Assembly (NCBI GenBank): GCA_028823235.1
Contig: JAPKBW010000004.1
Coordinates: 62,001-126,000, forward strand
Length of the DNA stretch: 64,000 bases
Source of the DNA: Longimicrobiales bacterium
GTDB taxonomy: Bacteria; Gemmatimonadota; Gemmatimonadetes; Longimicrobiales; Gaopeijiaceae
Direction of reading: 5' to 3'
Shown: positions 20,915-40,221 of the stretch, piece after piece
Layout of the letters: each line of letters opens with the position of its first letter
Position numbering within the stretch: position 1 is the stretch's first letter
Translations under genes and position numbers: made by a program
Notes under the pieces: model-generated
The model's database searches: none
Seen by the model: only the letters and a program-made list of their open reading frames with translations
What the model was told of the DNA's origin: nothing

Positions 20915-20941
20915 TCCTAGTTGCGAGGTTATCGCAACCAG

Positions 20942-21296
20942 TGGAGGCGGCGGGAGTCGAACCCGCGTCCGCCTTTGAATCCAGCAGAGCCGCTACGTGC
21001 GTAGACCACTATCGATCTCGCCGCGGTCGGTCAGTGGTCAACCGGGTCCGCAGCCAGCCACCTTAAATCTCGTTCCCTAACCCGGTGGCATGACCAGGGA
21101 ACCAGCCCGAATTATCGACGTCTCGGAGGACCGCCTCAGGCGGGCGATCCAGGAGACGGGCTACTAAGGAAGAACCTTAAGCGGCCATCGCCATATCAGT
21201 GTTGGCAATTAAAAGTTTTCCCAGGGTTTAACGAGGACCAAGAACCTCGGCACGCTGCTCCACGTTCACCAAACACGTCGAAACCGGGACGCCCCC
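20942..21296 (-). ncRNA. ssrA: tmRNA (transfer-messenger RNA)
   Basis: The RNA rescues stalled ribosomes and tags the nascent peptide for proteolysis. The 5' end (GGGGGCG, then a GGUUUCGAC core) pairs with the 3' CGCCUCC, including the G3-U pair needed for alanine charging. The T-arm has the standard GGGTTCGACTCCC. The 3' CCA is not encoded. The tag reading frame at 21206-21177 is GCC AAC ACT GAT ATG GCG ATG GCC GCT TAA, giving ANTDMAMAA after the charged alanine. It lies 104 bases downstream of dusB on the same strand. Confidence 0.95.
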
Positions 21297-21400: not shown

Positions 21401-22402
21401 CTACCCTGCCTGAGCCGTCGCCAGATGCTGCTCCCGGTACGCCTGAAGCAGCACCTCCACATCCTCGAGTGTGGTCGACTGGAAGAGTTCCGTCCGCAGT
21501 GTCCGCCCATCGGGAAGTCCCTTGGTATACCACCCAAGATGTTTGCGGAAGTCGATGATGGCCCGGTCGGGGTCTGTCTCGAACGAAATTGCGTTACGAG
21601 CATGCTCGAGGCAGATCTCGAAACGCTCGTCCACTCCCGGTTCAGGCGGCACGGGCAGGCCGTCAAGCGCAGCTCTGGCCTGCGTGAAGATCCACGGGTC
21701 ACCGTGTGAGCCTCGGGCGATCATGATCCCTGCGCACCCAGTCTCTTCGCGCATGCGCCGGGCGTCCTCTCCGGTTTTGATATCGCCGTTCCCGATGACC
21801 GGGACTTCCAAGGCTTCGACGAGATCCGCAATTTCATGCCAGCGTGCGTGCCCGGAGTACATGTCGGCCCGAGTCCGCGGGTGGATACACAGGGCCTTCG
21901 CGCCAGCTTGCTCGCACCGGAGGCCAATGGCTACCGGATCTCGAGTCGACTCGTTGAATCCGCTCCTGATCTTTACCGTCGTGGGCAGGTCGGTGGCATC
22001 GTCTACCGCGCGAATCAGGACATCGACCAGATCCAGATCGCGAAGGCACCCTGACCCACCGTTCCGCTTCACGACCTTCTTCACAGGGCATCCGAAATTG
22101 ATGTCGATGAAGTCTGGTCCGTAGCTCTCCGCCACAAATGCAGCCGCGTCTGCCATCATCCCTGCATCCGCCCCAAAAATCTGAATCCCGATCGGGCGTT
22201 CCGCTTCGTCGAAGCGGAGGTATTCACGAGATCTCTTGCTATTCATGACGATGCCGGCCGCGCTGACGAACTCGCTCACGAGCACGTCGGCCCCGAACCG
22301 CCGGCAAAGCCTGCGGAACGGGGATTCACTCACACCGGCCTGCGGAGCCAGGTAGAGGGGCACGGAGTCGCCAGCAAGCAACTCGAGAGCGTCAATGGAC
22401 AT
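21401..22402 (-). CDS. dusB: tRNA-dihydrouridine synthase
   Basis: An FMN-dependent enzyme that reduces uridines in the tRNA D-loop. The protein has about 333 residues and a TIM-barrel start (LYLAPQAGVSESPFRRLCRRFGA). The catalytic Cys is near residue 105 in INFGCPVKKV. The phosphate-binding CIHPRTR and GNGDIKT motifs are also present. The DusB subtype is the best fit but rests on general resemblance. The ATG at 22402 is chosen over a GTG five codons upstream. It is divergent from the ptsN-like gene and upstream of ssrA. Confidence 0.88.
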   Translation of the reverse strand: MSIDALELLAGDSVPLYLAPQAGVSESPFRRLCRRFGADVLVSEFVSAAGIVMNSKRSREYLRFDEAERPIGIQIFGADAGMMADAAAFVAESYGPDFIDINFGCPVKKVVKRNGGSGCLRDLDLVDVLIRAVDDATDLPTTVKIRSGFNESTRDPVAIGLRCEQAGAKALCIHPRTRADMYSGHARWHEIADLVEALEVPVIGNGDIKTGEDARRMREETGCAGIMIARGSHGDPWIFTQARAALDGLPVPPEPGVDERFEICLEHARNAISFETDPDRAIIDFRKHLGWYTKGLPDGRTLRTELFQSTTLEDVEVLLQAYREQHLATAQAG

Positions 22403-22532
22403 GTTAGAAGCTACCACAGCCCGGAATCCGAAGAAGGATTCCGGGGTACAGGGATGCTCCTCGGGGCCGTGTGTTGTATTGTCGCCCCGCTACATCTCTC
22501 ATGACCGATCGACAAACGCCGGGAGGCGGTAC

Positions 22533-22985
22533 ATGAGGTTACGGGAACTCTTCACGGAAGACGCCGTGAAACTCGACCTCGAATCCGATACGAAGGACGG
22601 CATTCTCAGCGAACTCGTCGGGTTGCTTTGGCTCGACGGAATCTCTGCTTCAAAGCTCTACCAAACCTTGAAGCGGCGAGAGAATCTCGGATCGACGGGT
22701 ATTGGAAAGGGGATCGCCATCCCTCACTGCCGCTCACTCGTCGTGAATCAGCTGCGACTGGCTTACGGCCGCCGAACTTCGGGAATGGACTTCAATGCAA
22801 TCGACAACGCGCCAGTCCAGAATTTTTTCCTGATCATCGCGCCACCGCTCGAGGTTTCGAATCAGTACCTGCCGGTGCTGGGCAAGATCGCGCAGTTCGC
22901 GAAGGACCCGGAGGTCCCGGGCCTGCTGGCGGGACTCGACTCAGTCGAAGGCTTTCTCTCGCTTCTCAGCGAGAAGGCACCGTAG
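22533..22985 (+). CDS. ptsN: PTS EIIA protein, nitrogen/fructose type (PtsN-like)
   Basis: A 150-residue phosphocarrier of the EIIA-Ntr/fructose family. The phospho-accepting His is about residue 65 in GIAIPHCRS. It is encoded without a permease nearby, which suggests a regulatory rather than a transport role. The ATG at 22533 has a good GGGAGG site seven bases upstream; the longer open frame overlaps the divergent dusB promoter region. The phosphoryl donor is probably HPr encoded at 31246-31530. Confidence 0.88.
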   Translation: MRLRELFTEDAVKLDLESDTKDGILSELVGLLWLDGISASKLYQTLKRRENLGSTGIGKGIAIPHCRSLVVNQLRLAYGRRTSGMDFNAIDNAPVQNFFLIIAPPLEVSNQYLPVLGKIAQFAKDPEVPGLLAGLDSVEGFLSLLSEKAP

Positions 22986-27484: not shown

Positions 27485-28001
27485 AGTCCTCTGGGTTCAT
27501 CGCCCTAAGGTGTTCCTTGAGCTGATCCGCGTTCAGGCTTGCTTCTGCTGAGTCCCCAACTTCAACGTCGACCGCCAGGCCAGGGGATGCGTCGCCCTCA
27601 GCGATCTCAATATCGGTGTGGTCGAGGAGACTGTCGTCTGCGAAAAGGGTGGCCGCGCAACGAAGCGCGATCGCAATCGAATCCGAAGGTCTGGCGTCGA
27701 AGGAAATCACGTCCCCGTCCTGCTCAACCACCAACTCGGCGTAGTACGTACTCTTCTCGACTCCGGTAATGAGCACCTTGCGCACCTGTCCACCGAGCTT
27801 CTTCAACATGTCGCAGAGCAGATCGGCCGTGAGCGGACGCTGAAATGGGGCACCCGCCATATACGTGGCGATCGCTTTCGCTTCCGCCGGTCCGATCCAG
27901 ATGGGAAGCAACCGCCCCCCGCCCGTCTCCTGCAGGATGACGACCGGAGTGTCTGTGGTGCTATCCACCGCAAGGCTGTGAACCTCGACCTCGACCAACA
28001 C
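27465..28001 (-). CDS. Bifunctional nuclease (BFN/DUF151) family protein
   Basis: A 178-residue member of the BFN/DUF151 family. Conserved parts include VVILQETGGGRLLPIWIGPAEA near the N-terminus and ISFDARPSDSIAIALR in the middle. Plant homologues have DNase/RNase activity; bacterial roles are poorly defined. GTG at 28001 is preferred because GGAGGG lies nine bases upstream and the family normally starts just before this point; the frame stays open to TTG 28058. Confidence 0.8.
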   Translation of the reverse strand: MLVEVEVHSLAVDSTTDTPVVILQETGGGRLLPIWIGPAEAKAIATYMAGAPFQRPLTADLLCDMLKKLGGQVRKVLITGVEKSTYYAELVVEQDGDVISFDARPSDSIAIALRCAATLFADDSLLDHTDIEIAEGDASPGLAVDVEVGDSAEASLNADQLKEHLRAMNPEDFGRFTL

Positions 28002-28133
28002 GTTGAGGGACCCTCCGGACGACGGAAACATGAGCCATGACAGGCGCGATTCCACCAATACTCCCGAAAGACCCTAGGGTTCAGCCTCCCCAGATCAAAT
28101 CGCCCGGTGCGGACCGGCTCCGAGTCCTTCCGA

Positions 28134-29318
28134 TCAGCCTCCGACGGCAGTTTTAAGATCATCTGTTCGGTTCGTCAGTTCCCACGGGAAGAACTGAACC
28201 TCAGCTGAACCACCTGCTGTCGGCACACGCATCTCCGGTGTGCGGCCGAAGTGCCCGTAGGCAGCGGTCGCTGTGTAGATCGCGTTTCGCAGCCCGAGCG
28301 TCTCGATAATTTGAGCCGGACGAAAGTCGAATACGTCTGAAACAGCCTTCGACAAGTCTTCGTCCGGGATCTCGCCCGTGCCGAACGTCTGCACATGTAC
28401 TGAAACCGGCTCGATGACGCCGATTGCATAGGCCAACTGAATCTCACACCGGCGAGCGAGACCGGCAGCCACGACGTTCTTGGCAGCCCACCGCGACGCG
28501 TAAGCGGCCGAGCGGTCGACCTTGGTCGCGTCTTTTCCAGAGAACGCACCGCCGCCGTGACGGCCTACGCCACCATAGGTATCGACAATGATCTTCCGAC
28601 CCGTGAGGCCGGCATCGCCGTGAGGCCCACCGATGACGAAGCGGCCGGTTGGGTTGATATGCAGAGTGCAGTTATCCGGATCGTATAGATCCACCGGCAA
28701 CGCAGGCAGCACAACCTTCTCCACGATGCCAGCGACCAGATCCTCCTGGCGCACCTCCGGATCGTGCTGTGTGCTGACGACCACGGTGTGAATGCGCACG
28801 GGCCGATCGCCATCGAACTCGATCGTGACCTGCGCCTTCCCGTCCGGGCGCGCCCAGGGGAGTTCGCCGCTCTTCCGCACGGCAGCGAGCTGCTCGGTGA
28901 GAGCGTGCGCGTATTGGATCGTCGCCGGCATGAGTTCGTTCGTTTCGTCGGACGCGTAGCCGAACATCATCCCCTGATCGCCAGCCCCGCCGGTATCCAC
29001 ACCCATCGCGATGTCGGGCGACTGCTGGTCCAGACTGGTGAGAACTGCACACGTCGACCCGTCGATGCCGAAGTTCGCGTTCGTGTAACCAATGCGCTTC
29101 AGCGTGCCACGAATTACATCGGGCAGGTGTACGTACCCGGTCGTCGTGACTTCGCCAGCGACCATCACGAGGCCGGTGGTGACGAGTGTTTCGCACGCGA
29201 CCCGTGACGCTGGATCCTGAACCAGCATGTGGTCGAGAACCGCGTCGGAAATCTGGTCCGCCATCTTGTCTGGATGGCCTTCGGTCACGGACTCGGAAGT
29301 AAAGAGCGTCAAGCTCAC
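28134..29318 (-). CDS. metK: S-adenosylmethionine synthetase
   Basis: It makes S-adenosylmethionine from methionine and ATP. Signatures are [20 protein letters not shown] at the N-terminus, [12 protein letters not shown] (ATP-binding hexapeptide region) and [18 protein letters not shown]. The start is taken as GTG at 29318, which has GGAG five bases upstream and gives the usual N-terminus; the frame extends to a TTG at 29351. It lies after ptsI on the same strand with a small hairpin between them. Confidence 0.94.
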
Positions 29319-29358
29319 AGGTACTCCGTGGAGAATGCAGAAAGGGAACAACAGGCGA

Positions 29359-29383
29359 GCCGATGACAGGGCCTGCCATCGGC
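29359..29383 (-). other. Small perfect hairpin between ptsI and metK
   Basis: GCCGATG (29359-29365) and CATCGGC (29377-29383) form a 7-bp stem in the 134-base gap. It could end the PTS operon or shape the metK leader. It does not match a SAM riboswitch that I recognise. Confidence 0.4.
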
Positions 29384-29452
29384 AAAATCAACCAGAACCC
29401 TACACAAACGCCCGGCGACTGACAACGGATACCGCCAAGTGCATTGGGCCGC

Positions 29453-31249
29453 CTATTCCCCCGCGTGTTCCGGGAGTGAAAGGCTCCATCGCCCCGAGAA
29501 TGCCTCGAGGTCCACAGCACCCCCGATCCCCTCGACCAGACAGTCGATGACGTCCCGGCTCGTGGGCGCGGCAAGGGCCTTCCGTGCCGCTGTGCGGGCG
29601 TCCTCGATCCGGACAGCCCGAATGACCTTCTTGATTTCAGGAAGCGACGGCCACGCCATCGAGAGAGCCATAATGTCGAGACCCAGCATAAGGAAGGCGC
29701 CCAGAGGATTCGCCGCCATCTCACCACAGACACTGACCTCGATCCCGGCGGCCCTGCCCACTCGGGCGACTTGGTGAAGCTGGCGTACCACCGCAGGATG
29801 GAAGGGATTGTAGAGCTTGGCGAGGCGTGTATTTGTCCGATCGACGGCCAGCGTGTACTGAACCAGGTCGTTGGTACCGATGGAAAAGAAGTCGCTGTAC
29901 CTCGCCAACTCAGCGGCATCGAGAGCCGCCGCGGGCGTCTCGATCATGACGCCAACCTTGTATCCCGCATTGTAAGGAATTCCCGCGCGAGCCAGTCCGG
30001 CCGCCTCCTCCTCCAGAAGGGCCCGGACCTGCCGAATCTCCTCCACGTCATTGACGAGAGGCACCATGAATCGGACGTCACCGTGTGCCGTCGACCGCAA
30101 CAAGGCACGTAGCTGAGTTCGAAACAGCTCAGGTTCGTCGAGACAGACCCGAATCGCCCGCCACCCGAGGAAGGGATTCTCCTCTTGGGGCATGTGCAGG
30201 AACATCGGGAACTTGTCGCCCCCGAGGTCGAACGTCCGGATGTAGACAGCGCTCTGCGGGAAAGCCTCCGCGGCCGCCCGGTACGACTCATACTGCTCCT
30301 CTTCGCTCGGCATCGTATTTCGCCCGACGACGAGGAACTCGGTGCGGAAGAGCCCCACCCCCTGCGCTCCGTGCGCAATCGCCTGCGCAGACTCACCCGG
30401 GAGATCAAGATTCACCCGCAGCTCCACCTGCTGGCCATCTCGTGTGACCGGCTCGAGCGCGGTCACGATCGCGATCTCCTCCTCCCACTCCGAAATACGG
30501 GACAGACGGGCATCGAAGCTCCGGAGCTCGCGCTCGCCTGGATTCACAACCACACGTCCAATGCGCCCGTCCAGGATCGCCTGCTGACCGTCGTCCGTCG
30601 TGCTGGAGATCGTACCGAGACCCACCACCGCTGGGACCTGAAGTGATCGAGCGAGCATCACCCAGTGGGCGGTGCGTGTGCCCTGATCCGTCGCGATCCC
30701 CACCACGTAGTCCAGATCGAGCTGCATGGTCAGACTCGGCGTCATATTCTTCGCCACGATGATGACCTTCTGTCCCAGCTCGGCGAGATCGGTCGGATCG
30801 TTCTTTCCGAGGAGCCTGTGAAGAATCCGGATCATGAAATCTTCAAGATCGTTGAGCCGGTCGAGCACCATAGGATGCGACGTGCGATTCCACATCGAGC
30901 GCAGCTCAAGCATGCGCAGTTCGAAGGCCCGCTCCGCCGACAGCCGGTTCTCCCGGATGTATCGAAGGGTGCCGTCTAGGACCTCCGGGTCCTCGAGCAT
31001 GAGGAGCTGCGGGTCGAAGATTCGTGCTTCTACAAGGCCCAGCCGGCCCTCCGTGAGAGCCTTGAGTTCATGGAGGTGCTCGCCTGCCCAGGAGAGCACC
31101 TCCTGGAAACGCGCGATCTCCCGATCTACTTCGGCATCTGCAATTGACTGGTGGGGCACGACCGGCACGCCCCATTCCAGCTGGAAAACCTGACCCGCGG
31201 CCATACCTTCCGACGCGGGGGAGCCATCAAGAATGGTCGAGACCGTCAC
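29453..31249 (-). CDS. ptsI: PTS enzyme I (PEP-protein phosphotransferase)
   Basis: The first PTS enzyme: it takes phosphate from PEP onto a His and passes it to HPr. The 598 residues include an HPr-binding helical region, the active-site His about residue 195 in GTRTAHWVMLARS, and a PEP-binding TIM barrel with LFRTEFL and the catalytic Cys in VSVCGEMAANP. The His segment has TAHWVMLAR where many enzymes have TSHTAIMAR. The start is a GTG overlapping the HPr stop by four bases, so translation of the two is probably coupled. Confidence 0.93.
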   Translation of the reverse strand: MTVSTILDGSPASEGMAAGQVFQLEWGVPVVPHQSIADAEVDREIARFQEVLSWAGEHLHELKALTEGRLGLVEARIFDPQLLMLEDPEVLDGTLRYIRENRLSAERAFELRMLELRSMWNRTSHPMVLDRLNDLEDFMIRILHRLLGKNDPTDLAELGQKVIIVAKNMTPSLTMQLDLDYVVGIATDQGTRTAHWVMLARSLQVPAVVGLGTISSTTDDGQQAILDGRIGRVVVNPGERELRSFDARLSRISEWEEEIAIVTALEPVTRDGQQVELRVNLDLPGESAQAIAHGAQGVGLFRTEFLVVGRNTMPSEEEQYESYRAAAEAFPQSAVYIRTFDLGGDKFPMFLHMPQEENPFLGWRAIRVCLDEPELFRTQLRALLRSTAHGDVRFMVPLVNDVEEIRQVRALLEEEAAGLARAGIPYNAGYKVGVMIETPAAALDAAELARYSDFFSIGTNDLVQYTLAVDRTNTRLAKLYNPFHPAVVRQLHQVARVGRAAGIEVSVCGEMAANPLGAFLMLGLDIMALSMAWPSLPEIKKVIRAVRIEDARTAARKALAAPTSRDVIDCLVEGIGGAVDLEAFSGRWSLSLPEHAGE

Positions 31250-31530
31250 GCCTCCACCTCCCCAAAGCCCCGCCCCACCAGAGCCGCGAGCGCGCCTACT
31301 GCGTCGACGGCGTCCTCCCCTTCGGCCGAGATCCGGAGCTGACTCCCCATTTCGGCCGCGAGCATGAGCACCCCCATGATGCTCTTCCCGTTCACCTCGA
31401 GCCCGTCCTTCTCGAGTCGTACCTCTGACGAGAAAGTGCCGGCCAGCTTGACCAGTTCGGAAGCCGGACGAGCGTGCATACCCGCGTGATTCACGATCTC
31501 GACAGTGCGTTCCACGTTGGTCTCATTCAT
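31246..31530 (-). CDS. ptsH: PTS phosphocarrier protein HPr
   Basis: A 94-residue HPr. The phospho-His is about residue 19 in GMHARPAS. The HPr-kinase target Ser is about residue 50 in NGKSIMGVLML, so both the transport and the regulatory phosphorylation sites are kept. ATG at 31530 overlaps the IID stop as ATGA. It lies between the mannose-type permease genes and ptsI, and hprK is in the same cluster. Confidence 0.93.
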   Translation of the reverse strand: MNETNVERTVEIVNHAGMHARPASELVKLAGTFSSEVRLEKDGLEVNGKSIMGVLMLAAEMGSQLRISAEGEDAVDAVGALAALVGRGFGEVEA

Positions 31531-32279
31531 CCGGACACTCCCCATGCGGCGATCAGACCGATCGCGGATACCGTGGCAATCGCGGCGGGCCGCCACGTCC
31601 TGTGTCCACCAACCACCCCTGCACCGAAGCCACACGCTGCAAGGCCGACCCAACCCGCCCCCGACTCGCCGAGCCCTCCCTGCCCTCCAATGAGAGCCCC
31701 TGCCAGTCCCCCGAGAGCGAGGACCAGCAGCGGTTGCAGTCGAGCGGTGAGGCCCGTCAGGTCCGCCTCAGCCAGTCGGCGACCAACGTTTCGGCCTGCT
31801 TCAAGCCCAGTCCGCAGCCCCCATGCCCGCAGCCAGAGATGGCCGACATTGTACACCACGAGGAAGAGACAGATCGCCGCCCAACCGGGCAAGCCGATCC
31901 AGAAGAGGGCCAGGGTGCTCACAGACACAGCGGGCAACCAGGTAGCCCAGACCAGAGCGTCTCCCAGGCTGCCGAGCGGGCCGCGGACGGCAATCTTGAA
32001 ACGGCGAATTGTTTCGGCGTCTTCTCTCTCGCTCTCCATACGGAGAGATGCCCCCAGAGCAACCGACGCCAAGTAGGGATGTGCGTTGAAGTGCTCCAGG
32101 TGTCGGTCCAGGGCCGCCTCTACAGCCGCCGGGTCGTCCGGGAACAGTCTTCTCAGGCCGGGCAGCATCGAGAAGCCGAAGCCGGCGCCCAGCATCGTGT
32201 GATAGTTCCAGGCGCCCTGGATCAGAAGAGATCGAAGGAAAATACTGATCACCGTGGTTCGCGGCAGCTTGCCAGTCAC
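31527..32279 (-). CDS. PTS mannose/fructose/sorbose-family IID component
   Basis: A membrane component of a mannose-type PTS permease, 250 residues. It begins with a helical cytoplasmic region (LRSLLIQGAWNYHTMLGAGF, LFPDDPAAVEAALDRHLEHFN) and ends with several hydrophobic helices, as expected for IID. GTG at 32279 overlaps the IIC stop as GTGA, and its own stop overlaps the HPr ATG. The transported sugar cannot be told from sequence. Confidence 0.85.
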   Translation of the reverse strand: MTGKLPRTTVISIFLRSLLIQGAWNYHTMLGAGFGFSMLPGLRRLFPDDPAAVEAALDRHLEHFNAHPYLASVALGASLRMESEREDAETIRRFKIAVRGPLGSLGDALVWATWLPAVSVSTLALFWIGLPGWAAICLFLVVYNVGHLWLRAWGLRTGLEAGRNVGRRLAEADLTGLTARLQPLLVLALGGLAGALIGGQGGLGESGAGWVGLAACGFGAGVVGGHRTWRPAAIATVSAIGLIAAWGVSG

Positions 32280-32941
32280 AGGAGTCGCGCCCCTATGATT
32301 CCGAGTGTGATCCCTGCCGCGAACAAAGTGCGACGACGACGAAATCCCCCGAGGTCGTGCAGAAGGATGCCTGCGGACACCGCTCCTCCGACGAGTAGAA
32401 GCCCGGTCGATGCGGACGAGGACAGCGGCCACCGATCTACGACAGAGCCGATAAGCAGGCGTCCCGAGAGCACACCGGTCATGGTCACCGCGCTACCACG
32501 GAGAAAGTCCGCCGCGATAGCGATGAGGTGAGAGAGACCCGGCGGAAAGCCCGAAGCCGTGTTGGACCCGGGTTCGGGAACCAGCCATGAATTGAAATGC
32601 CGTTGTGCATTCACGGAAGCACCCCCGATCTGACCCCAGACAAGCCCAACGGCAACCGCGACCGGGACTGCTCCAGCCCCCGAGAATGGCGCAGCCACCG
32701 CTACCGCCACGGCGGTGGCGGTGGCCCCTTCTGGAAAACGAGCTCCGCCCGTTGGAAACGACACCAGGAGATAAAGCTCGAGGACCGCCCCGATCCCAAT
32801 CCCCAGTTCCATGTCACCGACCGCCCACCCCATTACAGCCCCCACGACGAGGGGCCTTGAGATCATGAACTGACCCACAGCAGTACCATCGAGACCTAGG
32901 AGTCCACCGAGTAGGCCGAGGCGAAGAAGATCTGGTGGCAT
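32276..32941 (-). CDS. PTS mannose/sorbose-family IIC component
   Basis: A 221-residue polytopic protein with about six hydrophobic stretches, in line with IIC of the mannose/sorbose PTS. The N-terminal LLGLDGTAVGQFMISRPLVV and MELGIGIGAVLELYLL regions carry the family pattern. It is somewhat shorter than many IIC proteins. It follows IIB closely and overlaps IID by four bases. Confidence 0.82.
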   Translation of the reverse strand: MPPDLLRLGLLGGLLGLDGTAVGQFMISRPLVVGAVMGWAVGDMELGIGIGAVLELYLLVSFPTGGARFPEGATATAVAVAVAAPFSGAGAVPVAVAVGLVWGQIGGASVNAQRHFNSWLVPEPGSNTASGFPPGLSHLIAIAADFLRGSAVTMTGVLSGRLLIGSVVDRWPLSSSASTGLLLVGGAVSAGILLHDLGGFRRRRTLFAAGITLGIIGARLL

Positions 32942-32949
32942 GCGTTGGA

Positions 32950-33429
32950 TCAGTCCTTGAGCAGCGTCGAAAGACTGACTCGATGGGCATCAGGAAGGTC
33001 ACGAGCGCTCAATTCGACCCCTTCTGCGGCGATCGTGCGCAGGCTCTCGCGGTCCTTTTGGGTCACATATAGATAGGGAAGCAGCTCTTTGCGGCCGGGG
33101 CCATGGTGAATTCCGCCGAGGTTGACCTCTTCACCCGAGAGTAATCCCCCTTCGGCAAGGCGTCGCATCGTTCCGATGTCACGGGTCAGCAGAATCACGC
33201 GACGGTCAGACGTGCCCCATTCGGGGAGCCGGTCACGCGCATCGTCGACGTTGGCAAAGATGACCTCAGGCCCACCAGCAGCCAGTTCATAGAGCTGCTT
33301 TTCCCAGTCGCTGTCCGCGAGTTCATCATCGACGAGGACAAAGCAGTCAGGACGGAGCTGGTGACCCCAGCCAATAACTACCTGGCCGTGAATCAGGCGT
33401 TCATCGATCCGGCGGAGAACGATCGACAC
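32950..33429 (-). CDS. PTS mannose/fructose/sorbose-family IIB component
   Basis: A cytoplasmic phosphotransfer subunit of about 159 residues. The active-site His is about residue 14 in RRIDERLIHGQVVIGW. The length is normal for a free-standing IIB domain. GTG at 33429 is used because it gives the conserved N-terminus; the longer open frame overlaps IIA. It lies eight bases after the IIA stop. Confidence 0.87.
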   Translation of the reverse strand: MSIVLRRIDERLIHGQVVIGWGHQLRPDCFVLVDDELADSDWEKQLYELAAGGPEVIFANVDDARDRLPEWGTSDRRVILLTRDIGTMRRLAEGGLLSGEEVNLGGIHHGPGRKELLPYLYVTQKDRESLRTIAAEGVELSARDLPDAHRVSLSTLLKD

Positions 33430-33437
33430 GCCTGTTC

Positions 33438-33827
33438 TTATCGCTTGACGAGGGATTGACGAATCGCCTCGCGGCCATGGTCGATCGCTCGCTCCGCCAA
33501 TTCGTCGATCGGGAGTTCGCGATGGAATACGAAGTCGAGGAGCATAGGAAGATTCACTCCGGACACGACCACTCGTCGGACGCTGCCTCGGCATGAAGAG
33601 AGAGCGGCCACCCCACAACTTCCTGCCTGCAAATCGACGAACAGGATGACTGGCCCGTCGCCCAGTGCCTGGTCCAGGTCGGCCCGAAGCTGGACCGGGT
33701 TCTTGCCATCATTCGACAGAGGATGGAGTCCGTCCGCGGCACCGCCAGCAATCTTGCGAACCGCGTCGACCATGGCTCTCGCCATAGGGCCATGCGCCAA
33801 TACGACTCCGCGCACCGACTTACTCAT
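33438..33827 (-). CDS. PTS mannose-type IIA component
   Basis: A 129-residue EIIA of the mannose family. The phospho-His is about residue 12 in VLAHGPMARAM. It accepts phosphate from HPr and passes it to IIB. It overlaps the 3' end of hprK by eight bases, so kinase and phosphocarrier are coupled. It is shorter than the fused IIAB of E. coli ManX, in keeping with a separate IIB gene. Confidence 0.86.
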   Translation of the reverse strand: MSKSVRGVVLAHGPMARAMVDAVRKIAGGAADGLHPLSNDGKNPVQLRADLDQALGDGPVILFVDLQAGSCGVAALSSCRGSVRRVVVSGVNLPMLLDFVFHRELPIDELAERAIDHGREAIRQSLVKR

Positions 33828-34764
33828 AGTCCTGCTCCAGGTACTGCTTGAGCTTCGTGTCGAACGCTCGGGCGGAGTGGACGCCGCTGAACTTCAGGAG
33901 GTGGTTCATGGCCACGACCTCGGAAATGACCGTGATGTTTTTGCCCGGATTGAGCGGGACCGTCACGCGAGGTATCTGTACTTCCAGTACCTCGAGAAAA
34001 TCTTCCTCCAGCCCCGTGCGAGAGTACGAGCGATTTTGATCCCACAGCTCGAGATTCACGATGACCTCGATTCGCTTCTGCTGCCGCGTGGCGCGGACGC
34101 CGAAGAGAGCCGAAATGTCGATAATGCCGACGCCTCGAATCTCCATGTGGTGCCCCTGGCGCTCGTGCGCTCGCCCCATGAGGACATCGTTTCCCTGGCG
34201 ACTGACCATCACCAGGTCGTCGGCGACCAACCGATGGCCTCGTTCGACGAGATCGAGCACACATTCACTCTTTCCGACCCCACTCTCGCCGACAAATAAC
34301 AGTCCAACCCCGTACACGCTGGCGAGTGAACCGTGGAGAGTAGTCGACGGCGCCAAGGACAGCTCGAGAAACGGCTTAGCGAAGCGGTACAAAGCCTTGG
34401 TACTTCGAGGCGTCCTCAGGACTGGCACCCCGTGACGGGTCGCAGCCTCCAGAAAGTAGGTAGGGACGTCTAGCCCTTTCGAAACGAAGACCGCCGGCAC
34501 GGAGAACGCGAACAACCCGTCCAGTACGGTACCGGCAGCTTCAGGCTCGAGCGTCCCGAGGTATGTCATCTCCGTCTCACCGAAGACCCACATGCGGCCC
34601 TCCGGGACGCGGTCAGTGTAGCCGACGAGCGCCAGGCCCGGCGAGGTGATGTCAGCGTCGCCCGCCTGACGATCTAGCGGAGCCTCAGGATTAAGGTGCT
34701 CAAGAGCCAGAGTCTCCTTCTTGGCGTCCAGGATCTCCTGCACGGAGATGGTCTTACCGCTCAC
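33820..34764 (-). CDS. hprK: HPr kinase/phosphorylase
   Basis: It phosphorylates and dephosphorylates the regulatory Ser of HPr. The 314 residues contain an N-terminal domain, the conserved TTLHGSL, Walker A GESGVGKS at about 159-166, and the HprK signature MEIRGVGIIDI at about 207-217. It starts with GTG at 34764. It follows hpf and begins the IIA-IIB-IIC-IID-HPr-EI series, so its target is encoded in the same operon. No rapZ or rpoN is next to it, unlike the common proteobacterial arrangement. Confidence 0.93.
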   Translation of the reverse strand: MSGKTISVQEILDAKKETLALEHLNPEAPLDRQAGDADITSPGLALVGYTDRVPEGRMWVFGETEMTYLGTLEPEAAGTVLDGLFAFSVPAVFVSKGLDVPTYFLEAATRHGVPVLRTPRSTKALYRFAKPFLELSLAPSTTLHGSLASVYGVGLLFVGESGVGKSECVLDLVERGHRLVADDLVMVSRQGNDVLMGRAHERQGHHMEIRGVGIIDISALFGVRATRQQKRIEVIVNLELWDQNRSYSRTGLEEDFLEVLEVQIPRVTVPLNPGKNITVISEVVAMNHLLKFSGVHSARAFDTKLKQYLEQDYE

Positions 34765-34792
34765 TCGTCGATTTCTCCCGCGCTAGGTCGGT

Positions 34793-35119
34793 TCACTCCG
34801 TAGCGAGCCCTTCCGAGAGAGGCGTCCCCTGATGATCAACCCGCTTCTCGCGCTGATCTTTCAGAATCCGCTTCATCCTGTCCAGCACTTGAGTGAGAGC
34901 CTTCCCGAAACCCTCACCCTCGCCTCGCGCAGCCACCTGAGGCTCGCGATCTACGTGGACGATGACCTCGACCTTCTGAGTGTGCTTCTCGTCGGTATAT
35001 ATGACGTCCGCATGGGTGGCCCGTTGGTCGAACTTGTCGAGCGCTGCGAACGTTTTCGCGGTTCGTGCCAGAACTCGGCGCGGGACTTCACAATGCCTTT
35101 CGGTGATCGTGACCTTCAA
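34793..35119 (-). CDS. hpf: Ribosome hibernation-promoting factor, short form
   Basis: A 108-residue member of the HPF/RaiA (sigma-54 modulation) family, which binds the 30S decoding centre and silences ribosomes in stationary phase. The beta-alpha-beta-beta-beta-alpha pattern is seen in LKVTITERH, EVIVHVDRE and GFGKALTQVLDRMKRILKDQ. The long-form dimerisation domain is absent. A TTG at 35119 is chosen because a full AAGGAGG lies six bases upstream and no ATG or GTG fits. It precedes hprK by 28 bases. Confidence 0.85.
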   Translation of the reverse strand: MKVTITERHCEVPRRVLARTAKTFAALDKFDQRATHADVIYTDEKHTQKVEVIVHVDREPQVAARGEGEGFGKALTQVLDRMKRILKDQREKRVDHQGTPLSEGLATE

Positions 35120-35125
35120 GTCACA

Positions 35126-35132
35126 CCTCCTT
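35126..35132 (-). promoter_or_regulatory. Strong Shine-Dalgarno site of hpf
   Basis: AAGGAGG on the minus strand lies six bases before TTG 35119. It fixes the non-ATG start of hpf and is one of the best ribosome-binding sites in the window. Confidence 0.75.
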
Positions 35133-35165
35133 GAGGGACCTGTGGTATCGCACTCCAATGGGAAT

Positions 35166-36320
35166 TTACCGAGTGGGGGAGTCAGCGACCACCCGGTTGA
35201 GTACACCTTCGAAGGCCTCAGCAGAGGCATCCCAAGAGAACCCCTCGGCAAAACGCCGTGCTGCCCTTCCCATTTCCTTGCGCGTCTCAGGGCTGGCGAT
35301 CAAATCCGTCAGCGCCGCCGTGAGCGCGCCGACGTCCCCGTGTGGCACCAGACGACCCGTCTCTCCATCTCGCACCGATTCGCGAAGCCCGGGGGAGTCA
35401 CTCGCAACCGTCGGTGTCCCGCATGCGGCGGCCTCAAGGTTGGAGATCCCCCACCCTTCCTTGGGCGAAGTGAGAACGTGGATCCAGGACGTACGGAGAA
35501 GCTCCAGCTTTTCCTCCTCGGAAACGAACCCGGCAAACCGAACGCGATCCGACACCCCAAGGCCGTCCACCAGAGACGTGAGCTCCTCGAGCTGGTCCCC
35601 ACTTCCCCCGACCACAAGCTCTACGTCGGTTCCGGACTCGGCGAGGCGGGCGACAGCCTCTATCACCAAGTCCACGCGCTTGTACTTTTTCAAACGGCCA
35701 AGGAAGAGAAGTGTCGGCCGAACAGCCCGCTCGACGTCCTCTCTGGGCGTGTACCAATCCAGGTCGATTCCATTCGGAATCACCTCGATCTGCTCCGCGT
35801 TCAGCCCCCTGGCGACAAGGTCATCCTTGGTGCTCTCCGACACAGCCACCGCGGGCGTGTCCCGGAACACATGGGGTATCGGCCGTTCTAGCAGCCACGT
35901 AGCCAACGCAACCGGAACAGACGCCGCCTGGAAAGCAGTCGTACCGAAGAGGTGATGAGCCACGAGCAGGACGGGAGTCGGACTCCACCAGCCCGTGAAG
36001 AGCGGGACCTTGTTCAGATCCTCGACAACGACATCGAAGGTCCGAGAAGCGAGATGGGCCTTGAAATACCGTGGTCCTGCCATAGAAAATGTGTATCGAT
36101 GGCCGGCGCGGTGAATCTCGATGCCGTCGAGCTGCCTCTGGGGGTCACACTCCGACCAGCCTGACACCAGCGCGGTGACCTCGTGCCCCCTGGAGGCAAG
36201 CCGGCCGAAAATTTCGTGCAAGTGCTCCTCCGCCCCACCCGCCTGCGGGTTTTCCCGGTCGAGCCAATTGACGACCAGAATGCGGAGAGGTCTGCCTTCC
36301 TGCGCCTCGGCGGCGGTCAC
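35166..36320 (-). CDS. Glycosyltransferase family 4 protein
   Basis: A 384-residue GT-B fold retaining glycosyltransferase. The N-terminal domain has ILVVNWLDRENPQAGGAEEH, typical of GT4. The C-terminal domain has VIPNGIDLDWY, LFLGRLKKYKRVDL and SPKEGWGISNLEAAACGTP with the EX7E-type pattern. It probably transfers a sugar to a lipid or polysaccharide; donor and acceptor are unknown. It overlaps the nusB stop by four bases. Confidence 0.86.
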   Translation of the reverse strand: MTAAEAQEGRPLRILVVNWLDRENPQAGGAEEHLHEIFGRLASRGHEVTALVSGWSECDPQRQLDGIEIHRAGHRYTFSMAGPRYFKAHLASRTFDVVVEDLNKVPLFTGWWSPTPVLLVAHHLFGTTAFQAASVPVALATWLLERPIPHVFRDTPAVAVSESTKDDLVARGLNAEQIEVIPNGIDLDWYTPREDVERAVRPTLLFLGRLKKYKRVDLVIEAVARLAESGTDVELVVGGSGDQLEELTSLVDGLGVSDRVRFAGFVSEEEKLELLRTSWIHVLTSPKEGWGISNLEAAACGTPTVASDSPGLRESVRDGETGRLVPHGDVGALTAALTDLIASPETRKEMGRAARRFAEGFSWDASAEAFEGVLNRVVADSPTR

Positions 36321-36784
36321 GCCCCCTCCGGGCGTCCCTTGTACAGGGCGTCGAGTACCCCGTTCACGAAGCCAGGGGACTCGTTGCCACCATATGCCTC
36401 AGCCAGTCGAATCGCCTCTTGAATCGCCACCTTGGGCGGCACGTCTCCGCCGTAAAGGAGCTCCGCCGCTCCGATCCTCAGGACAGCGCGATCCATCGAT
36501 GAGAGCCGTTCCAAGCTCCAGTTGTCGAGATGCCTCCTGATAGCTCCGTCGAGTTCCGGCATGTGTTCATCCAACACGGTCATCAGGCCACGGATATAGG
36601 GCAGCCTTCTGGGAGCGATCCGTCGGGTTCCGGTCGTTTCGACCAATGCGTCTCGGAGAGACGTTTCGCTACCACCGCTCTCCCATCGGTAGTGAATCTG
36701 GAGAGCCCATGCGCGGCCCCGCGCACGATCGATCCGCTCGGAGCGGCTGAGCTTGGGCTGCTCGGCCTTCTCGGAGTCCATCAT
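36317..36784 (-). CDS. nusB: Transcription antitermination factor NusB
   Basis: A 155-residue all-helical RNA-binding protein that joins NusE/S10 on boxA during rRNA transcription. Family features include RGRAWALQIHY near the start, WSLERLSSMDRAVLRIGAAE in the middle, and VAIQEAIRLAEAYGGNESPGFVNGVLD at the end. Placement after ribH is a widespread bacterial arrangement. Confidence 0.92.
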   Translation of the reverse strand: MMDSEKAEQPKLSRSERIDRARGRAWALQIHYRWESGGSETSLRDALVETTGTRRIAPRRLPYIRGLMTVLDEHMPELDGAIRRHLDNWSLERLSSMDRAVLRIGAAELLYGGDVPPKVAIQEAIRLAEAYGGNESPGFVNGVLDALYKGRPEGA

Positions 36785-37221
36785 GTCTGATCACCACGTA
36801 GCGACAGATACACAGGCACCATCTCCAGAGCTGCCATAGCGGCTTCATATCCCTTGTTGTCTTTGCCTTCACCTGCGCGAGCCTGGGCCTGAGCGAGGTC
36901 GTCCGTCGTAAGCACGCCAAACACCACAGGAACACTGGACGCGCGTGCCACGGAACCGAGGCCACGACTGGCTTCCTGACAGACGAAGTCGAAATGGGGC
37001 GTCTCACCCCGGATAACACACCCGAGCGTGATTACTGCATCGAAACGCCGAGACGCTACGGCCTGCGCGGCCGTCGGCGGAAGTTCCCATGCCCCCGGAA
37101 CACGAATCTCAGTCACGTCTTCTGGCCGGACCCCGTGTTCGATAAGAGCCTCTCGAGCCCCCCTGAGAAGAGGCTCGGTAATCTCGGAGTTGAAGCGAGA
37201 CGCGATGACGACAACACGCAT
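36781..37221 (-). CDS. ribH: 6,7-dimethyl-8-ribityllumazine synthase
   Basis: It condenses ArP with dihydroxybutanone phosphate to lumazine, the penultimate step of riboflavin synthesis. Signatures are ASRFNSEITEPLLRGA, VPGAWELP and GCVIRGETPHFDFV with the catalytic His. ATG at 37221 is preferred (GGGGGAG just upstream, 146 residues). A TTG at 37278 overlapping the ribBA stop would add 19 residues but has no ribosome-binding site. It overlaps nusB by four bases. Confidence 0.92.
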   Translation of the reverse strand: MRVVVIASRFNSEITEPLLRGAREALIEHGVRPEDVTEIRVPGAWELPPTAAQAVASRRFDAVITLGCVIRGETPHFDFVCQEASRGLGSVARASSVPVVFGVLTTDDLAQAQARAGEGKDNKGYEAAMAALEMVPVYLSLRGDQT

Positions 37222-37274
37222 GCCCTCTCCCCCAGCGACGCCCCTTCGATCATCGACCGGCGAGCCCTCTGTAC

Positions 37275-38474
37275 TCAAAGGAGGTGTCCCATTTTGGCCC
37301 GCTTCGTTTCGAGGTAGCGCTCATTGTGTTCACCAGGCTCGACCTTTAGCGCCTCCTGTCCGGTGATCTCGATGTCGTAGCCATCGAGCCCGACAATCTT
37401 CTTCGGGTTGTTCGTGAGCAGCCGGATGGAGTGCAACTCTAGATCCAGCAAGATCTGCGCACCAATCCCGTAGTCACGAAGGTCGGGGGCAAAGCCGAGC
37501 TTCTCATTGGCCTCCACCGTGTCGAGGCCCTCATCCTGGAGATGGTACGCCTTGAGCTTGTTACCGAGACCGATCCCTCGCCCCTCTTGCCGCAGGTACA
37601 CGATCGCGCCGACGCCCTCTTCTTCGACTTGCCTCATTGCAGCCTGAAGCTGCTCGCCGCAATCGCAACGCATCGAACTGAATACGTCACCCGTCAGGCA
37701 CTCGGAGTGCATGCGCACCAGCACGTTGCTCTTCCCGGCGACTTCACCCTTCACGAGCGCGACATGCTCCCGCCCGTCCATAACGCTGCGGTATCCAATT
37801 ACGTCGAAGTCTCCGAAGTCCGTGGGCATTTTCGCTGTCGCGATTCTCTCAACCAGTCGGGTCCGTGTAAGGCGATACGCCACGAGCTGCGCAACCGTAA
37901 TGAACTTCAGGTCGTGCTCCTCCGCGAGCGCCTCGAGTTGCGGTCGGCGGGACATCTTTCCGTCGGAATCGAGGATCTCGCAGATGACCCCTACCGGCTC
38001 CAGTCCCGCAAGTCGCGCGAGGTCGACCGATGCCTCGGTCTGGCCAACCCGCCGGAGCACGCCTCCTGCCTTGGCGCGGAGCGGGAAAATGTGTCCCGGG
38101 CGCCGAAGGTCAGTTGGGACCGTGATCGGGTCCGCGAGGAGCTCGATGGTCTTCGAGCGATCCTGGGCACTGATCCCGGTCGTTACGCCGAAGCGTGTGT
38201 GTCCATCGACCGAAACCGTGAACGCCGTCCCAAGAGGGTCGGTGTTGTCATCCGTCATCAGCGGCAAGTCGAGCTCGTCGGCCCGCTCGGGCGTCAGCGT
38301 CACGCAGATCAGGCCACGTCCATACTCAAGCATGAAGTTGACGCGCTCCGGCGTCATCGCAGATGCGGCCATGACGAGGTCACCCTCATTTTCACGATCC
38401 TCGTCGTCAGCGACGATCACCATGCGGCCGCGACGAATGTCTTCAATGGCGTCTTCGACGCGGTCTAACTTCAT
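37275..38474 (-). CDS. ribBA: Bifunctional DHBP synthase / GTP cyclohydrolase II
   Basis: A fusion of RibB (about residues 1-200) and RibA (about 205-399). The RibB part has DDEDRENEGDL and the HTRFGVTTGISAQDRSKTI active region. The RibA part has HSECLTGDVFSSMRCDCGEQ with the zinc Cys residues, and LRQEGRGIGL. It opens both branches of riboflavin synthesis. ATG 38474 has GAGG eight bases upstream; a GTG three codons earlier would sit on that site. Confidence 0.95.
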   Translation of the reverse strand: MKLDRVEDAIEDIRRGRMVIVADDEDRENEGDLVMAASAMTPERVNFMLEYGRGLICVTLTPERADELDLPLMTDDNTDPLGTAFTVSVDGHTRFGVTTGISAQDRSKTIELLADPITVPTDLRRPGHIFPLRAKAGGVLRRVGQTEASVDLARLAGLEPVGVICEILDSDGKMSRRPQLEALAEEHDLKFITVAQLVAYRLTRTRLVERIATAKMPTDFGDFDVIGYRSVMDGREHVALVKGEVAGKSNVLVRMHSECLTGDVFSSMRCDCGEQLQAAMRQVEEEGVGAIVYLRQEGRGIGLGNKLKAYHLQDEGLDTVEANEKLGFAPDLRDYGIGAQILLDLELHSIRLLTNNPKKIVGLDGYDIEITGQEALKVEPGEHNERYLETKRAKMGHLL

Positions 38475-38484
38475 ATCAAACACC

Positions 38485-39084
38485 TCATTCCGCGCGCTGA
38501 GCGAGGATTCTGGCTACGTATTTTCCGATCAGATCACCTTCGACGTTCACGGCGTCTCCGGGCTCGAGGAGCCCAAGGTTCGTATGCGCGAACGTGTGAG
38601 GAATCACCCCGATACGAACCCTCGAATCGGGAAGGAGTTCACTGACGGTCAGACTAACCCCGTTGAGCGTCACCGACCCGTGATCAATCGTCTCTGAATG
38701 GACCGCGGAAGGTAACGAGAAGTCCATGGTCCAGAACGCCCCCCGCTTCGTGCGATCGGTGAGGTGTCCGATTGCATCTACATGTCCCTGAACGATATGG
38801 CCATCCAACCGAGAGCCCATTTTAAGGGCACGCTCAAGGTTGACCCGTGTCCCATCGTCATAGCTGCCAGTGATCGTCCGCTCCAGGGTCGTGCCGATCA
38901 CGTCGACGGAGAAGCTTTCGTCATCGACCGAGGTAACCGTCAGGCACCCACCGTCCACAGACACGGAATCACCGAGGGACAATTCACTCGCAAAAGCTGG
39001 AACCTCGACCCGGAAGCGCCGGGTCGTCTCTCGGTCTTCGACGCTTCTGATCGTACCGATCGCTTCGACAATCCCGCTGAACAT
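38485..39084 (-). CDS. ribE: Riboflavin synthase, alpha subunit
   Basis: It dismutates two lumazine molecules to riboflavin. The 199 residues form two similar lumazine-binding halves: MFSGIVEAIGTI with SVDGGCLTV in the first, and LDGHIVQGHVD with TLNGVSLTV in the second. It overlaps the ribD stop by one base and lies 10 bases before ribBA. Confidence 0.94.
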   Translation of the reverse strand: MFSGIVEAIGTIRSVEDRETTRRFRVEVPAFASELSLGDSVSVDGGCLTVTSVDDESFSVDVIGTTLERTITGSYDDGTRVNLERALKMGSRLDGHIVQGHVDAIGHLTDRTKRGAFWTMDFSLPSAVHSETIDHGSVTLNGVSLTVSELLPDSRVRIGVIPHTFAHTNLGLLEPGDAVNVEGDLIGKYVARILAQRAE

Positions 39085-40205
39085 CAGCCGTCCTCCTTTC
39101 GGTCCAGGATAAGCAATGTATCCGGTCCGAACAGCTCAGGTTCAGCAGACAGCGAGTACGCGTTCCAATCCAGTTGCTCGAGGCCCTCTGCGAAAGCCGG
39201 TAGTCCATTCTGCCCAATCACATGAGGGGCGATCCACAGATAGAGACGCCCAACCAGATTCTCCCGCAGAAGGGCCGCCCCCAGCGCGCTACCGCCCTCG
39301 CAGAGGATGGACTGGATGCCCAGTTCTTGGCAGACCGCAAGAACAGATTCCAGGCGAAGTCCAGTTTCGTCAGCGGGAACCGGATGCACATGAACTCGGG
39401 CCGCTTCCAGTCGCTCGATGGCGACCTCGGAGGCATCGACGCCACAGAACACATGGACCGGCGCGTCCTCAACTTCTTGCAGCAATCCCGCGTCCGCCGG
39501 AAGATTTGCATCGGGAAGGAGCACGAGACGCCTCGGCGCGGTGCTTCCCGGCGGAACGAGTCGGACGGTGAGCCGTGGGTCGTCTGCTCGTACGGTACCC
39601 GCACCCACAAGGACCGCGTCAAAGCCCGTCCGTAGTCGATGGACCTCTCGCTCGGCATCCGTGCCAGTGATCCGGGTCGCAACGCCCGGGGCAGCGGCGA
39701 TCATCCCGTCGAGGCTCATAGCGAGTTTGAGCGCGACGAAAGGGGTCGAATGGCGTGCAGCATGGAAGAATGCCGGATTCTCCGCTCGTGCCTCGGCCAT
39801 ACTTCCCACGGGTCCGATGACGCTAAGTCCGGCTTTCTGGAGGGCGACTGCCCCGCCACCTGACTTCTCACCGGGATCAGAAGCCGCGTAAACCACTCTC
39901 TTCACTCCCGCGTCGATCAGCGCCTGGCTGCACGGCGGCGTTCTTCCATGGTGATTGCACGGCTCCAGGCTTACGTAGGCAGTGCTGCCATCGGCGGTCA
40001 AAAGCGCTCGTTCGAGCGCCACGACTTCGGCATGCGGCCCGCCATACACCTCATGATGTCCTTCGGCGATCACTTCACCCGCCCGAACTAGAACGCATCC
40101 GACCATGGGATTTGGGGAAACCCGTCCCCATCCCTGGCGACCGATTTCTACCGATCGGGAGAGGTGGGCCAGGTCCTCGAGGCTCAGCGCCGTGTCCGGG
40201 ATCAT
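39084..40205 (-). CDS. ribD: Bifunctional pyrimidine deaminase/reductase RibD
   Basis: It deaminates and then reduces the pyrimidine intermediate of riboflavin synthesis. The N-terminal deaminase domain has the zinc motifs GGPHAEVVAL and SLEPCNHHGRTPPC. The C-terminal reductase domain begins near VALKLAMSLDGMIA and includes CEGGSALGAALL. It follows an outer-membrane protein gene by 16 bases. I see no FMN riboswitch in front of it. Confidence 0.94.
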   Translation of the reverse strand: MIPDTALSLEDLAHLSRSVEIGRQGWGRVSPNPMVGCVLVRAGEVIAEGHHEVYGGPHAEVVALERALLTADGSTAYVSLEPCNHHGRTPPCSQALIDAGVKRVVYAASDPGEKSGGGAVALQKAGLSVIGPVGSMAEARAENPAFFHAARHSTPFVALKLAMSLDGMIAAAPGVATRITGTDAEREVHRLRTGFDAVLVGAGTVRADDPRLTVRLVPPGSTAPRRLVLLPDANLPADAGLLQEVEDAPVHVFCGVDASEVAIERLEAARVHVHPVPADETGLRLESVLAVCQELGIQSILCEGGSALGAALLRENLVGRLYLWIAPHVIGQNGLPAFAEGLEQLDWNAYSLSAEPELFGPDTLLILDRKEDG

Positions 40206-40221
40206 TATTGCCTCGTATTGG

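Follow-up and report, generated by a model that had tools for sequence, protein, structure and literature searches.

A predicted mannose-family sugar phosphotransferase system encoded with its own HPr kinase in Gemmatimonadota

Results

What function is served by a set of mannose-family phosphotransferase system (PTS) genes that lies beside genes for an HPr kinase and a ribosome hibernation factor? The question is raised by eight consecutive genes on the minus strand, from 35119 to 29453 of the window (the whole 64,000-nucleotide stretch that was analysed), in the order hpf-hprK-IIA-IIB-IIC-IID-HPr-EI. These genes and the neighbours relevant here are:

35166..36320, minus: glycosyltransferase, upstream neighbour, 46 bp from hpf; PF00534; same position in relatives
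34793..35119, minus: hpf, short ribosome hibernation factor family protein, 108 aa; PF02482, 40.5 bits (cut-off 23.7)
33820..34764, minus: hprK, full-length HPr(Ser) kinase/phosphatase, 314 aa; PF07475 and PF02603; TIGR00679, 327 bits (cut-off 240)
33438..33827, minus: IIA, mannose family, 129 aa, His12; PF03610, 34.4 bits (cut-off 21.4)
32950..33429, minus: IIB, mannose/sorbose family, His14; PF03830, 117.5 bits (cut-off 27)
32276..32941, minus: IIC membrane subunit, 221 aa; PF03609, 54.2 bits (cut-off 26.3)
31527..32279, minus: IID membrane subunit, 250 aa; PF03613, 130.5 bits (cut-off 25)
31246..31530, minus: HPr, 94 aa, His19 and Ser50; PF00381, 99.3 bits
29453..31249, minus: Enzyme I (EI), 598 aa, His195; TIGR01417, 514 bits (cut-off 341.7); Pfam N-terminal, mobile and C-terminal domains
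28134..29351, minus: metK, downstream neighbour; Pfam S-AdoMet synthetase domains; same position in relatives
22395..22985, plus: PtsN-like EIIA (PTS_EIIA_2 family); PF00359, 85.3 bits, residues 51-193

The open reading frames and the Pfam profile search, in which all eight proteins exceed their cut-offs, confirm the gene order given in a preliminary description of this DNA, and also its statement that a complete permease, EI, HPr and a full-length HprK are encoded in one tight gene string. The genes were there called fused, but they are eight separate reading frames. The junctions, from hpf to EI, are +28, −8, +8, +8, −4, −4 and −4 bp; the claim that most overlap by 4–8 bases therefore holds by a bare majority (four of seven), the other three being short gaps of at most 28 bp. 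The NCBIfam cut-offs are exceeded by HprK, HPr and EI and not by the four permease proteins or hpf (31.7 against 40.9 for yfiA). The hpf gene starts with TTG, with AAGGAGG upstream, while the true starts of the metK frame, taken from its first start codon, and of the PtsN-like frame are probably internal. HPr is the sole PF00381 match genome-wide at E ≤ 0.001, and no GAF domain is among the Pfam matches of EI. By their scores, IIA and IIC are divergent family members.

The genes from ribD through the glycosyltransferase, upstream of hpf, are packed end to end, so the transcript may start upstream of hpf. Scans of 28000-40500 gave 2 promoter-like sites (2.5 in shuffled sequence) and 4 terminator-like sites (7.1 in shuffles). 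Since neither is above chance, the borders of the transcript cannot be set from sequence. Rfam gave no match at gathering score in 20000-45000 except tmRNA.

The preliminary description held that all phospho-His sites and the HPr Ser are kept, and this is true of the window and of its relatives. Conservation was read from rows spanning 60% or more of the corresponding protein in the window, with the window itself included, together with L055 and L059, apparent duplicates of L019 and L003. His19 and Ser50 of HPr, the latter being the HprK target, are kept in 61 of 61 rows, His195 of EI in 59 of 59, and His14 of IIB (numbered from the GTG at 33429) in 43 of 43. His12 of IIA is kept in 51 of 52, the exception being a protein truncated at that point (L013). 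HprK has both its N- and C-terminal domains, and seven of its residues are invariant in 62 of 62 rows; we take its residues to be the P-loop, the catalytic His and the acidic residues. At one locus (L039), Ser50 is present even though hprK is gone, and therefore the Ser alone is no proof of HprK kinase activity. An unusual Trp follows the phospho-His of EI; it occurs in 41 of 57 rows, and we rejected it as a peculiarity of this genome.

IIA, IIB, IIC and IID belong to the mannose-family permeases by their Pfam scores, although they stay below the NCBIfam subfamily and equivalog cut-offs. The AlphaFold model of IIC (pLDDT 88.0) matches Man-PTS chains, among them 6k1h_B (TM 0.68), and the IID sequence matches the mannose IID chain 6k1h_Z in the PDB with E = 4e-28. 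In Foldseek searches of the PDB, all matches of the IIC and IID models at E ≤ 0.001 (11 and 13, respectively) are Man-PTS chains, with moderate TM-scores of 0.48–0.68 relative to the query. Thus, both subunits are predicted from these models to fold like ManYZ-type chains. Pocket residues were judged from Lactococcus lactis mutants (PMC10783117, like all papers cited here consulted in excerpt). In 37 of 38 rows the WN motif of IID has retained its Asn, which appears on our reading of the alignment to correspond to L. lactis N28, mutation of which abolishes sugar uptake (PMC10783117). For D25 of L. lactis IIC, an important Asp, the alignment gave no certain counterpart in this IIC.

Among the matches listed, the closest named relatives are in Gemmatimonadota. 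All eight genes occur in the same order in 20 of the 31 named loci among these matches, and the other 11 have fewer genes but never another order; the gene order is thus not due to chance. IID was found, as a single copy, in 162 of 200 sampled genomes. The searches for IID, IIA, HPr and HprK were genome-wide, in differing genome sets, and those for IIB and IIC covered the loci only. One of 182 HprK matches (G137, E 2e-4) falls under the family cut-off. We accordingly rejected uniqueness of the operon. The arrangement had been presented as special, but it is common in the phylum and has published precedents: the operon itself is ordinary for Gemmatimonadota, and its outline is already known from other bacteria. 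Among the papers listed from one open-access library, we recognised none on this operon in Gemmatimonadota, which is weak evidence, as papers merely mentioning Gemmatimonas were left unopened. An apparent loss of HPr and EI at one locus (L025) was rejected as an assembly join: within the IID frame the sequence turns into a string of unknown bases, and unrelated genes follow.

HprK occurs without IID in 21 of the 200 genomes. Fifteen of these belong to one family (f1), in which IID is gone and hprK-HPr-EI is kept; ten of the fifteen retain IIA, and five have hprK-HPr-EI alone. We read 20 of the 21 at the locus, the exception being G009, with hprK and HPr on different contigs. In other genomes the whole cluster has been deleted in place, and the entire set, including the regulators, has been lost repeatedly among the relatives. 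The tree had 56 rows with the window, after removal of L055, L059 and every locus lacking at least two of the three genes ribBA, glycosyltransferase and metK; L038 and the loci of families f8 and f10 were among the rows left out.

A search for CcpA- or RapZ-like partners had been proposed, and we found neither a LacI/CcpA-type protein nor RapZ in this genome. None of 36 genomes, the window's included, gave a RapZ match (0 of 36), while the same search matched 6 of 14 control genomes. A LacI-type HTH (CcpA family) was found in 1 of 13 genomes searched, which was not the window's, and in 9 of 14 controls. The CcpA of Firmicutes-type catabolite repression was thus not found here, and the outputs that textbooks give for HPr-Ser-P are not in evidence. 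The PtsN-like gene lies about 6.5 kb from the cluster on the opposite strand. A strong PF00359 match is present in 31 of 31 genomes that were searched for PF00359 and in which HPr was seen, versus 2 of 15 without HPr, a co-occurrence that is confounded by physical linkage and incomplete metagenome-assembled genomes. The 36 genomes used for the PF00359, RapZ and IIA searches were hand-chosen out of the 200; the remaining HPr-less genomes and G121 were added to this comparison, which excludes G082, a genome with a PF00359 match that lay outside the HPr search. On the sequence evidence, the PtsN-like protein is likely a second acceptor of phosphate from HPr.

Discussion

We propose, with a probability of about 0.8, that the cluster encodes, in a single string of genes, a mannose-family sugar PTS together with an HPr kinase and the proteins of general phosphotransfer. 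EI would receive phosphate from PEP and hand it on to His19 of HPr, from which it would pass to His12 of IIA and then to His14 of IIB, and finally to a sugar that would enter through the IIC-IID permease. HprK would phosphorylate Ser50 of HPr and so throttle or redirect this flow, and a second branch probably leads from HPr to the PtsN-like protein. We infer this scheme, including the origin of the cluster discussed below, from the genes present and their order, their active sites, how the proteins are predicted to fold, what is conserved, and the patterns of presence and absence with their scars.

Why is hpf present? In five f10 loci the order is lptB-rpoN-hpf-hprK-HPr-EI, and in two f8 loci the cluster follows rpoN, which adjoins hpf in the loci read from both families. 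The window shares the hpf-hprK-IIA-HPr-EI neighbourhood with pts clusters linked to rpoN, but its own cluster contains neither ptsN nor rapZ, and the rpoN of this genome lies on a different contig (G000:C8). Because of the f8 and f10 loci and the gammaproteobacterial rpoN operon, as described in excerpt, this neighbourhood looks ancestral. The association of hpf with hprK thus has the look of a relic, which would have been inherited from an old rpoN-hpf-hprK-pts cluster and detached from rpoN in most loci read. The preliminary description instead saw a link between sugar influx, HPr-Ser phosphorylation and ribosome silencing. Such a dedicated circuit, coupled through co-expression with hpf, would fit the finding that hpf precedes hprK in 44 of the 49 loci (counted with a profile built from those loci's own matches), with at most 30 bp between them in 19 of the 21 measured. 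However, the five loci that lack hpf all have hprK and IIA-IID, and hpf remains at one locus from which hprK has gone (L039) and at another that has lost the PTS genes (L071). Furthermore, few genes of the set diverge as much as hpf, with 27–55% identity to relatives, and its neighbourhood looks ancestral to the rpoN cluster. The link to ribosome silencing is therefore not supported, and we consider the circuit very unlikely.

Decay of the permease, with transport lost, is also very unlikely. IIC is short (221 aa versus 266 for ManY), and IIC and IID (33–67% and 40–65% identity to relatives) diverge faster than HPr or EI. Nevertheless, 20 columns of IIC are invariant among 31 sequences and 41 of IID among 23, the predicted folds are confident, the frames are intact in the window, and a tblastn search of those permease-less loci that were read detected no remains of IIB-IID. 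It is possible, if doubtful, that the system is mainly regulatory, with selection on EI-HPr-HprK acting on PtsN (and IIA), and the permease a dispensable add-on or sensor and not a bulk importer. The genomes with HprK and no IID favour this: the active sites in the f1 loci are unchanged, and a PF00359 match is present in 21 of 21. A permease kept as a single copy in most genomes would be unexpected for a useless add-on, though, and the regulators themselves have been lost with the rest. This alternative is compatible with the sugar PTS that we favour.

The relatives form a series: the full system, IIA only, hprK-HPr-EI alone, HPr-EI without HprK, and nothing. We regard this deletion series as the most useful result, a natural experiment in which relatives keep the regulators without the transporter, and it could reveal the role of HprK and a permease-less PTS in bacteria without the CcpA and RapZ routes. 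Tentatively, the selected ancestral core in Gemmatimonadota might be the EI-HPr-HprK relay, with PtsN as its standing acceptor and the permease as a detachable input. The phylum would then replay, through intermediates that can still be seen, the stepwise loss inferred for Proteobacteria, first of IIB-IID, next of IIA and last of HprK, and HprK, without CcpA or RapZ, might gate phosphate to PtsN.

How does this cluster compare with known systems? That many Gram-negatives with hprK lack IIB-IID, as previously stated, agrees with the excerpts of PMC2405797, PMC13104625 and PMC2937029, and the authors of PMC2405797 propose loss of IIB-IID in most proteobacterial lineages. As here, the Desulfovibrio vulgaris cluster is akin to the rpoN-pts genes and combines a putative transporter of the mannose class with HPr and EI-R (PMC2405797). 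Unlike that rpoN-type cluster, the present one belongs to a different phylum, has rpoN, ptsN and rapZ elsewhere, and sits between rib-nusB-glycosyltransferase and metK. In Pelobacter carbinolicus (Pcar_1929-1936), PtsI, PtsH, IID, IIC, IIB and IIA are likewise serial by locus number, but hprK, present here, is reported missing (PMC3543383); the PTS of its Geobacteraceae relatives, without IIB-IID, is termed 'vestigial' in the same paper. The alphaproteobacterial hprK-manX-ptsO system (Brucella) also combines HprK, a mannose-type IIA and an HPr-like protein, with no CcpA and with PtsN as another acceptor (PMC2937029, PMC13104625). It resembles the permease-less clade of Gemmatimonadota and differs from the window in having no permease and EI-Ntr in place of EI-R (PMC2937029, PMC13104625); HprK is truncated in alphaproteobacteria (PMC2405797). 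Finally, the permease is of the same mannose family, and by prediction the same fold, as the IIAB-IIC-IID of E. coli ManXYZ, from which it differs in its separate IIA and IIB proteins, its shorter IIC and its linkage to HPr, EI and HprK.

Operon layout and flanks

The consecutive gene order from hpf to EI given in the preliminary description was right. The features in the window are as follows.

35119-29453, minus strand: the eight genes hpf, hprK, IIA, IIB, IIC, IID, HPr and EI
46 bp upstream of hpf: glycosyltransferase gene
36317-40205, minus strand: ribD, ribE, ribBA, ribH and nusB, end to end, running into the glycosyltransferase gene
Downstream of the operon: metK
22395-22985, plus strand: PtsN-like EIIA (PF00359), beside a dihydrouridine synthase gene and close to the PTS operon
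20939-21296, minus strand: tmRNA gene (Rfam RF00023)

All eight proteins pass their Pfam cut-offs, and HprK (TIGR00679), HPr (TIGR01003) and EI (TIGR01417) also pass those of NCBIfam. The matches of IIA, IIB, IIC, IID and hpf fall below the NCBIfam cut-off, and these are therefore divergent members. The junctions from hpf to EI are +28, -8, +8, +8, -4, -4 and -4 bp. Judged by ORF starts, those from ribD to the glycosyltransferase are a 1 bp overlap, a 1 bp gap and three 4 bp overlaps; with these genes packed end to end upstream, the transcription unit may be longer than was first drawn. No riboswitch was matched by Rfam at 20000-45000.

Active sites and permease

HPr His19 and Ser50, EI His195, IIA His12 and IIB His14 do not vary among the relatives examined, nor do seven residues of HprK; the single exception is one truncated IIA row. 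Ser50 is present at locus L039 although hprK is gone there, so its presence is no evidence of HprK action. L039 retains hpf and HPr-EI, and lacks IIA and the permease as well as hprK. The EI phospho-His motif (29453-31249, His195 region) is RTAHW; the Trp after the phospho-His is found in 41 of 57 rows, and TSHT in the five rows from f10, which among the families listed is the only one outside the window's class.

Structure models of IIC and IID were built from alignments including the window's sequences (n = 31 and 23) and have pLDDT values of 88.0 and 87.3. At E <= 0.001, Foldseek matched them to Man-PTS chains only (11 for IIC, 13 for IID), with TM-scores to the query of 0.48-0.68. The Asn of the IID WN motif is conserved in 37 of 38 rows and, by our own reading of the alignment, would correspond to N28 of L. 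lactis IID, which lies near the sugar pocket and for which a mutant is described (PMC10783117). Asp18 and Gln24 of IIC are invariant (41/41 rows); in the alignment to ManY, Asp18 falls at a gap and Glu26 stands opposite Gln24, and the match to L. lactis D25 is ambiguous.

Distribution in Gemmatimonadota

Related IID proteins occur at no fewer than 31 named loci, and among the matches listed all are labelled Gemmatimonadetes, Gemmatimonadota or a taxon within. Gene-neighbourhood comparison of the 31 listed (at least 31 exist) shows the full set of eight in one common order at 20, and a partial set, with no other order seen, at 11. In 10 of the partial sets, what is missing is hpf or would fall past a contig end; in the other, L025, the sequence is interrupted by a stretch of unknown bases. 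The flanks ribBA-ribH-nusB-glycosyltransferase and metK are common to the loci that extend that far, except L017, where metK was not matched, though the next gene was.

The phylum sample comprised 200 genomes, among them that of the window, with a completeness of at least 80 %. IID was found in 162, with a single match per genome, and HprK in 182 at E <= 0.001, 181 of them exceeding the family cut-off. Both were present in 161 genomes, HprK alone in 21, IID alone in one and neither in 17; in the sole IID-only genome (G035) the IID match begins at the contig end.

Loss of the permease and of the cluster

The modest interest of the locus comes mainly from a deletion series. Within the window's family, genera g2 and g16 include fifteen genomes that have HprK and lack IID. 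Ten carry hpf-hprK-IIA-HPr-EI and five hpf-hprK-HPr-EI, and the genome-wide IIA search agrees with this reading; in G067, a sixteenth case, HprK is missing and the locus reads hpf-HPr-EI. In permease-less G098, hprK is split across two frames (L040), a pseudogene or a sequencing error.

HPr had no match in 15 further genomes, 13 of which (all but G002 and G193) were read around the glycosyltransferase. At seven (L063, L064, L065, L070, L072, L073 and L075, of which L075 belongs to the window's genus) the cluster is deleted, and the distance from glycosyltransferase to metK is between 25 and about 450 bp. Remnants of the lost PTS survive between these two genes in two genomes of a single genus: hprK fragments in L063 (3748-3899, E 3e-7) and an 87-residue EI fragment in L064 (6129-6389, 66 %, E 5e-23). 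L071 keeps hpf and none of the PTS genes at the site. In the five g5 genomes (L066-L069, L074) the glycosyltransferase has none of these neighbours and so does not mark the site.

Three neighbouring proteins gave a tree of 56 rows. It calls for a minimum of 5 changes in the permease state, at least 4 of them forced by well-supported branches: one at the clade comprising g2, g16 and L071, and four that correspond to deletions of the whole cluster. For hprK-HPr-EI lacking IIA, the minimum is 3 changes. The tree came from a quick search and was midpoint-rooted; which way the changes ran is therefore judged from family placement and the scars.

Partner proteins and the hpf-hprK pairing

The PtsN-like EIIA is a likely second acceptor from HPr. 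Among genomes searched for PF00359, all 31 with an observed HPr have a strong match (E below 1e-17), as do 2 of the 15 HPr-less genomes (G002, G193). In seven of the other HPr-less genomes the sole match is a weaker one, within an open frame of >700 codons; one has a weak partial match and five have none. Linkage and MAG gaps could contribute to this co-occurrence. The search for CcpA- or RapZ-like partners, suggested in the preliminary description, gave no RapZ in 36 genomes (6/14 controls positive) and a LacI-type HTH in 1 of 13 (controls 9/14), the window's genome being without one.

Why does hpf accompany hprK? Two genomes of family f8 (L061, L062) read rpoN-hpf-hprK-IIA-IIB-IIC-IID-HPr-EI, with lptB also seen in L061. 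The five f10 loci read (L049-L052, L054) are lptB-rpoN-hpf-hprK-HPr-EI and contain neither IIA nor a permease. In the gammaproteobacterial rpoN operon, too, the hibernation factor lies together with ptsN and rapZ (PMC13104625). From these rpoN-linked arrangements we infer that the pairing is probably an inherited neighbourhood. rpoN itself is present in 25/25 genomes tested, and in the window's genome lies on a separate contig. hpf is present at 44 of 49 loci having both the glycosyltransferase and hprK, and absent at five (L014, L016, L023, L029, L030), where gaps of 57-144 bp are too small for it. The proposed unusual circuit from sugar influx to ribosome silencing is thus unsupported.

Comparison with published systems

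No Gemmatimonadota paper on the operon was recognised in a limited literature search. Comas et al., who discuss the putative mannose-class system of Desulfovibrio vulgaris, suggested IIB-IID loss for most proteobacterial lineages (PMC2405797). The Pelobacter carbinolicus genome is described as having PtsI, PtsH, IID, IIC, IIB and IIA in series, and Geobacteraceae as carrying vestigial versions (PMC3543383); in Brucella the relay is reported to work with neither permease nor CcpA (PMC2937029). Given these full and permease-less systems, the window operon is a further example of an already known PTS arrangement.
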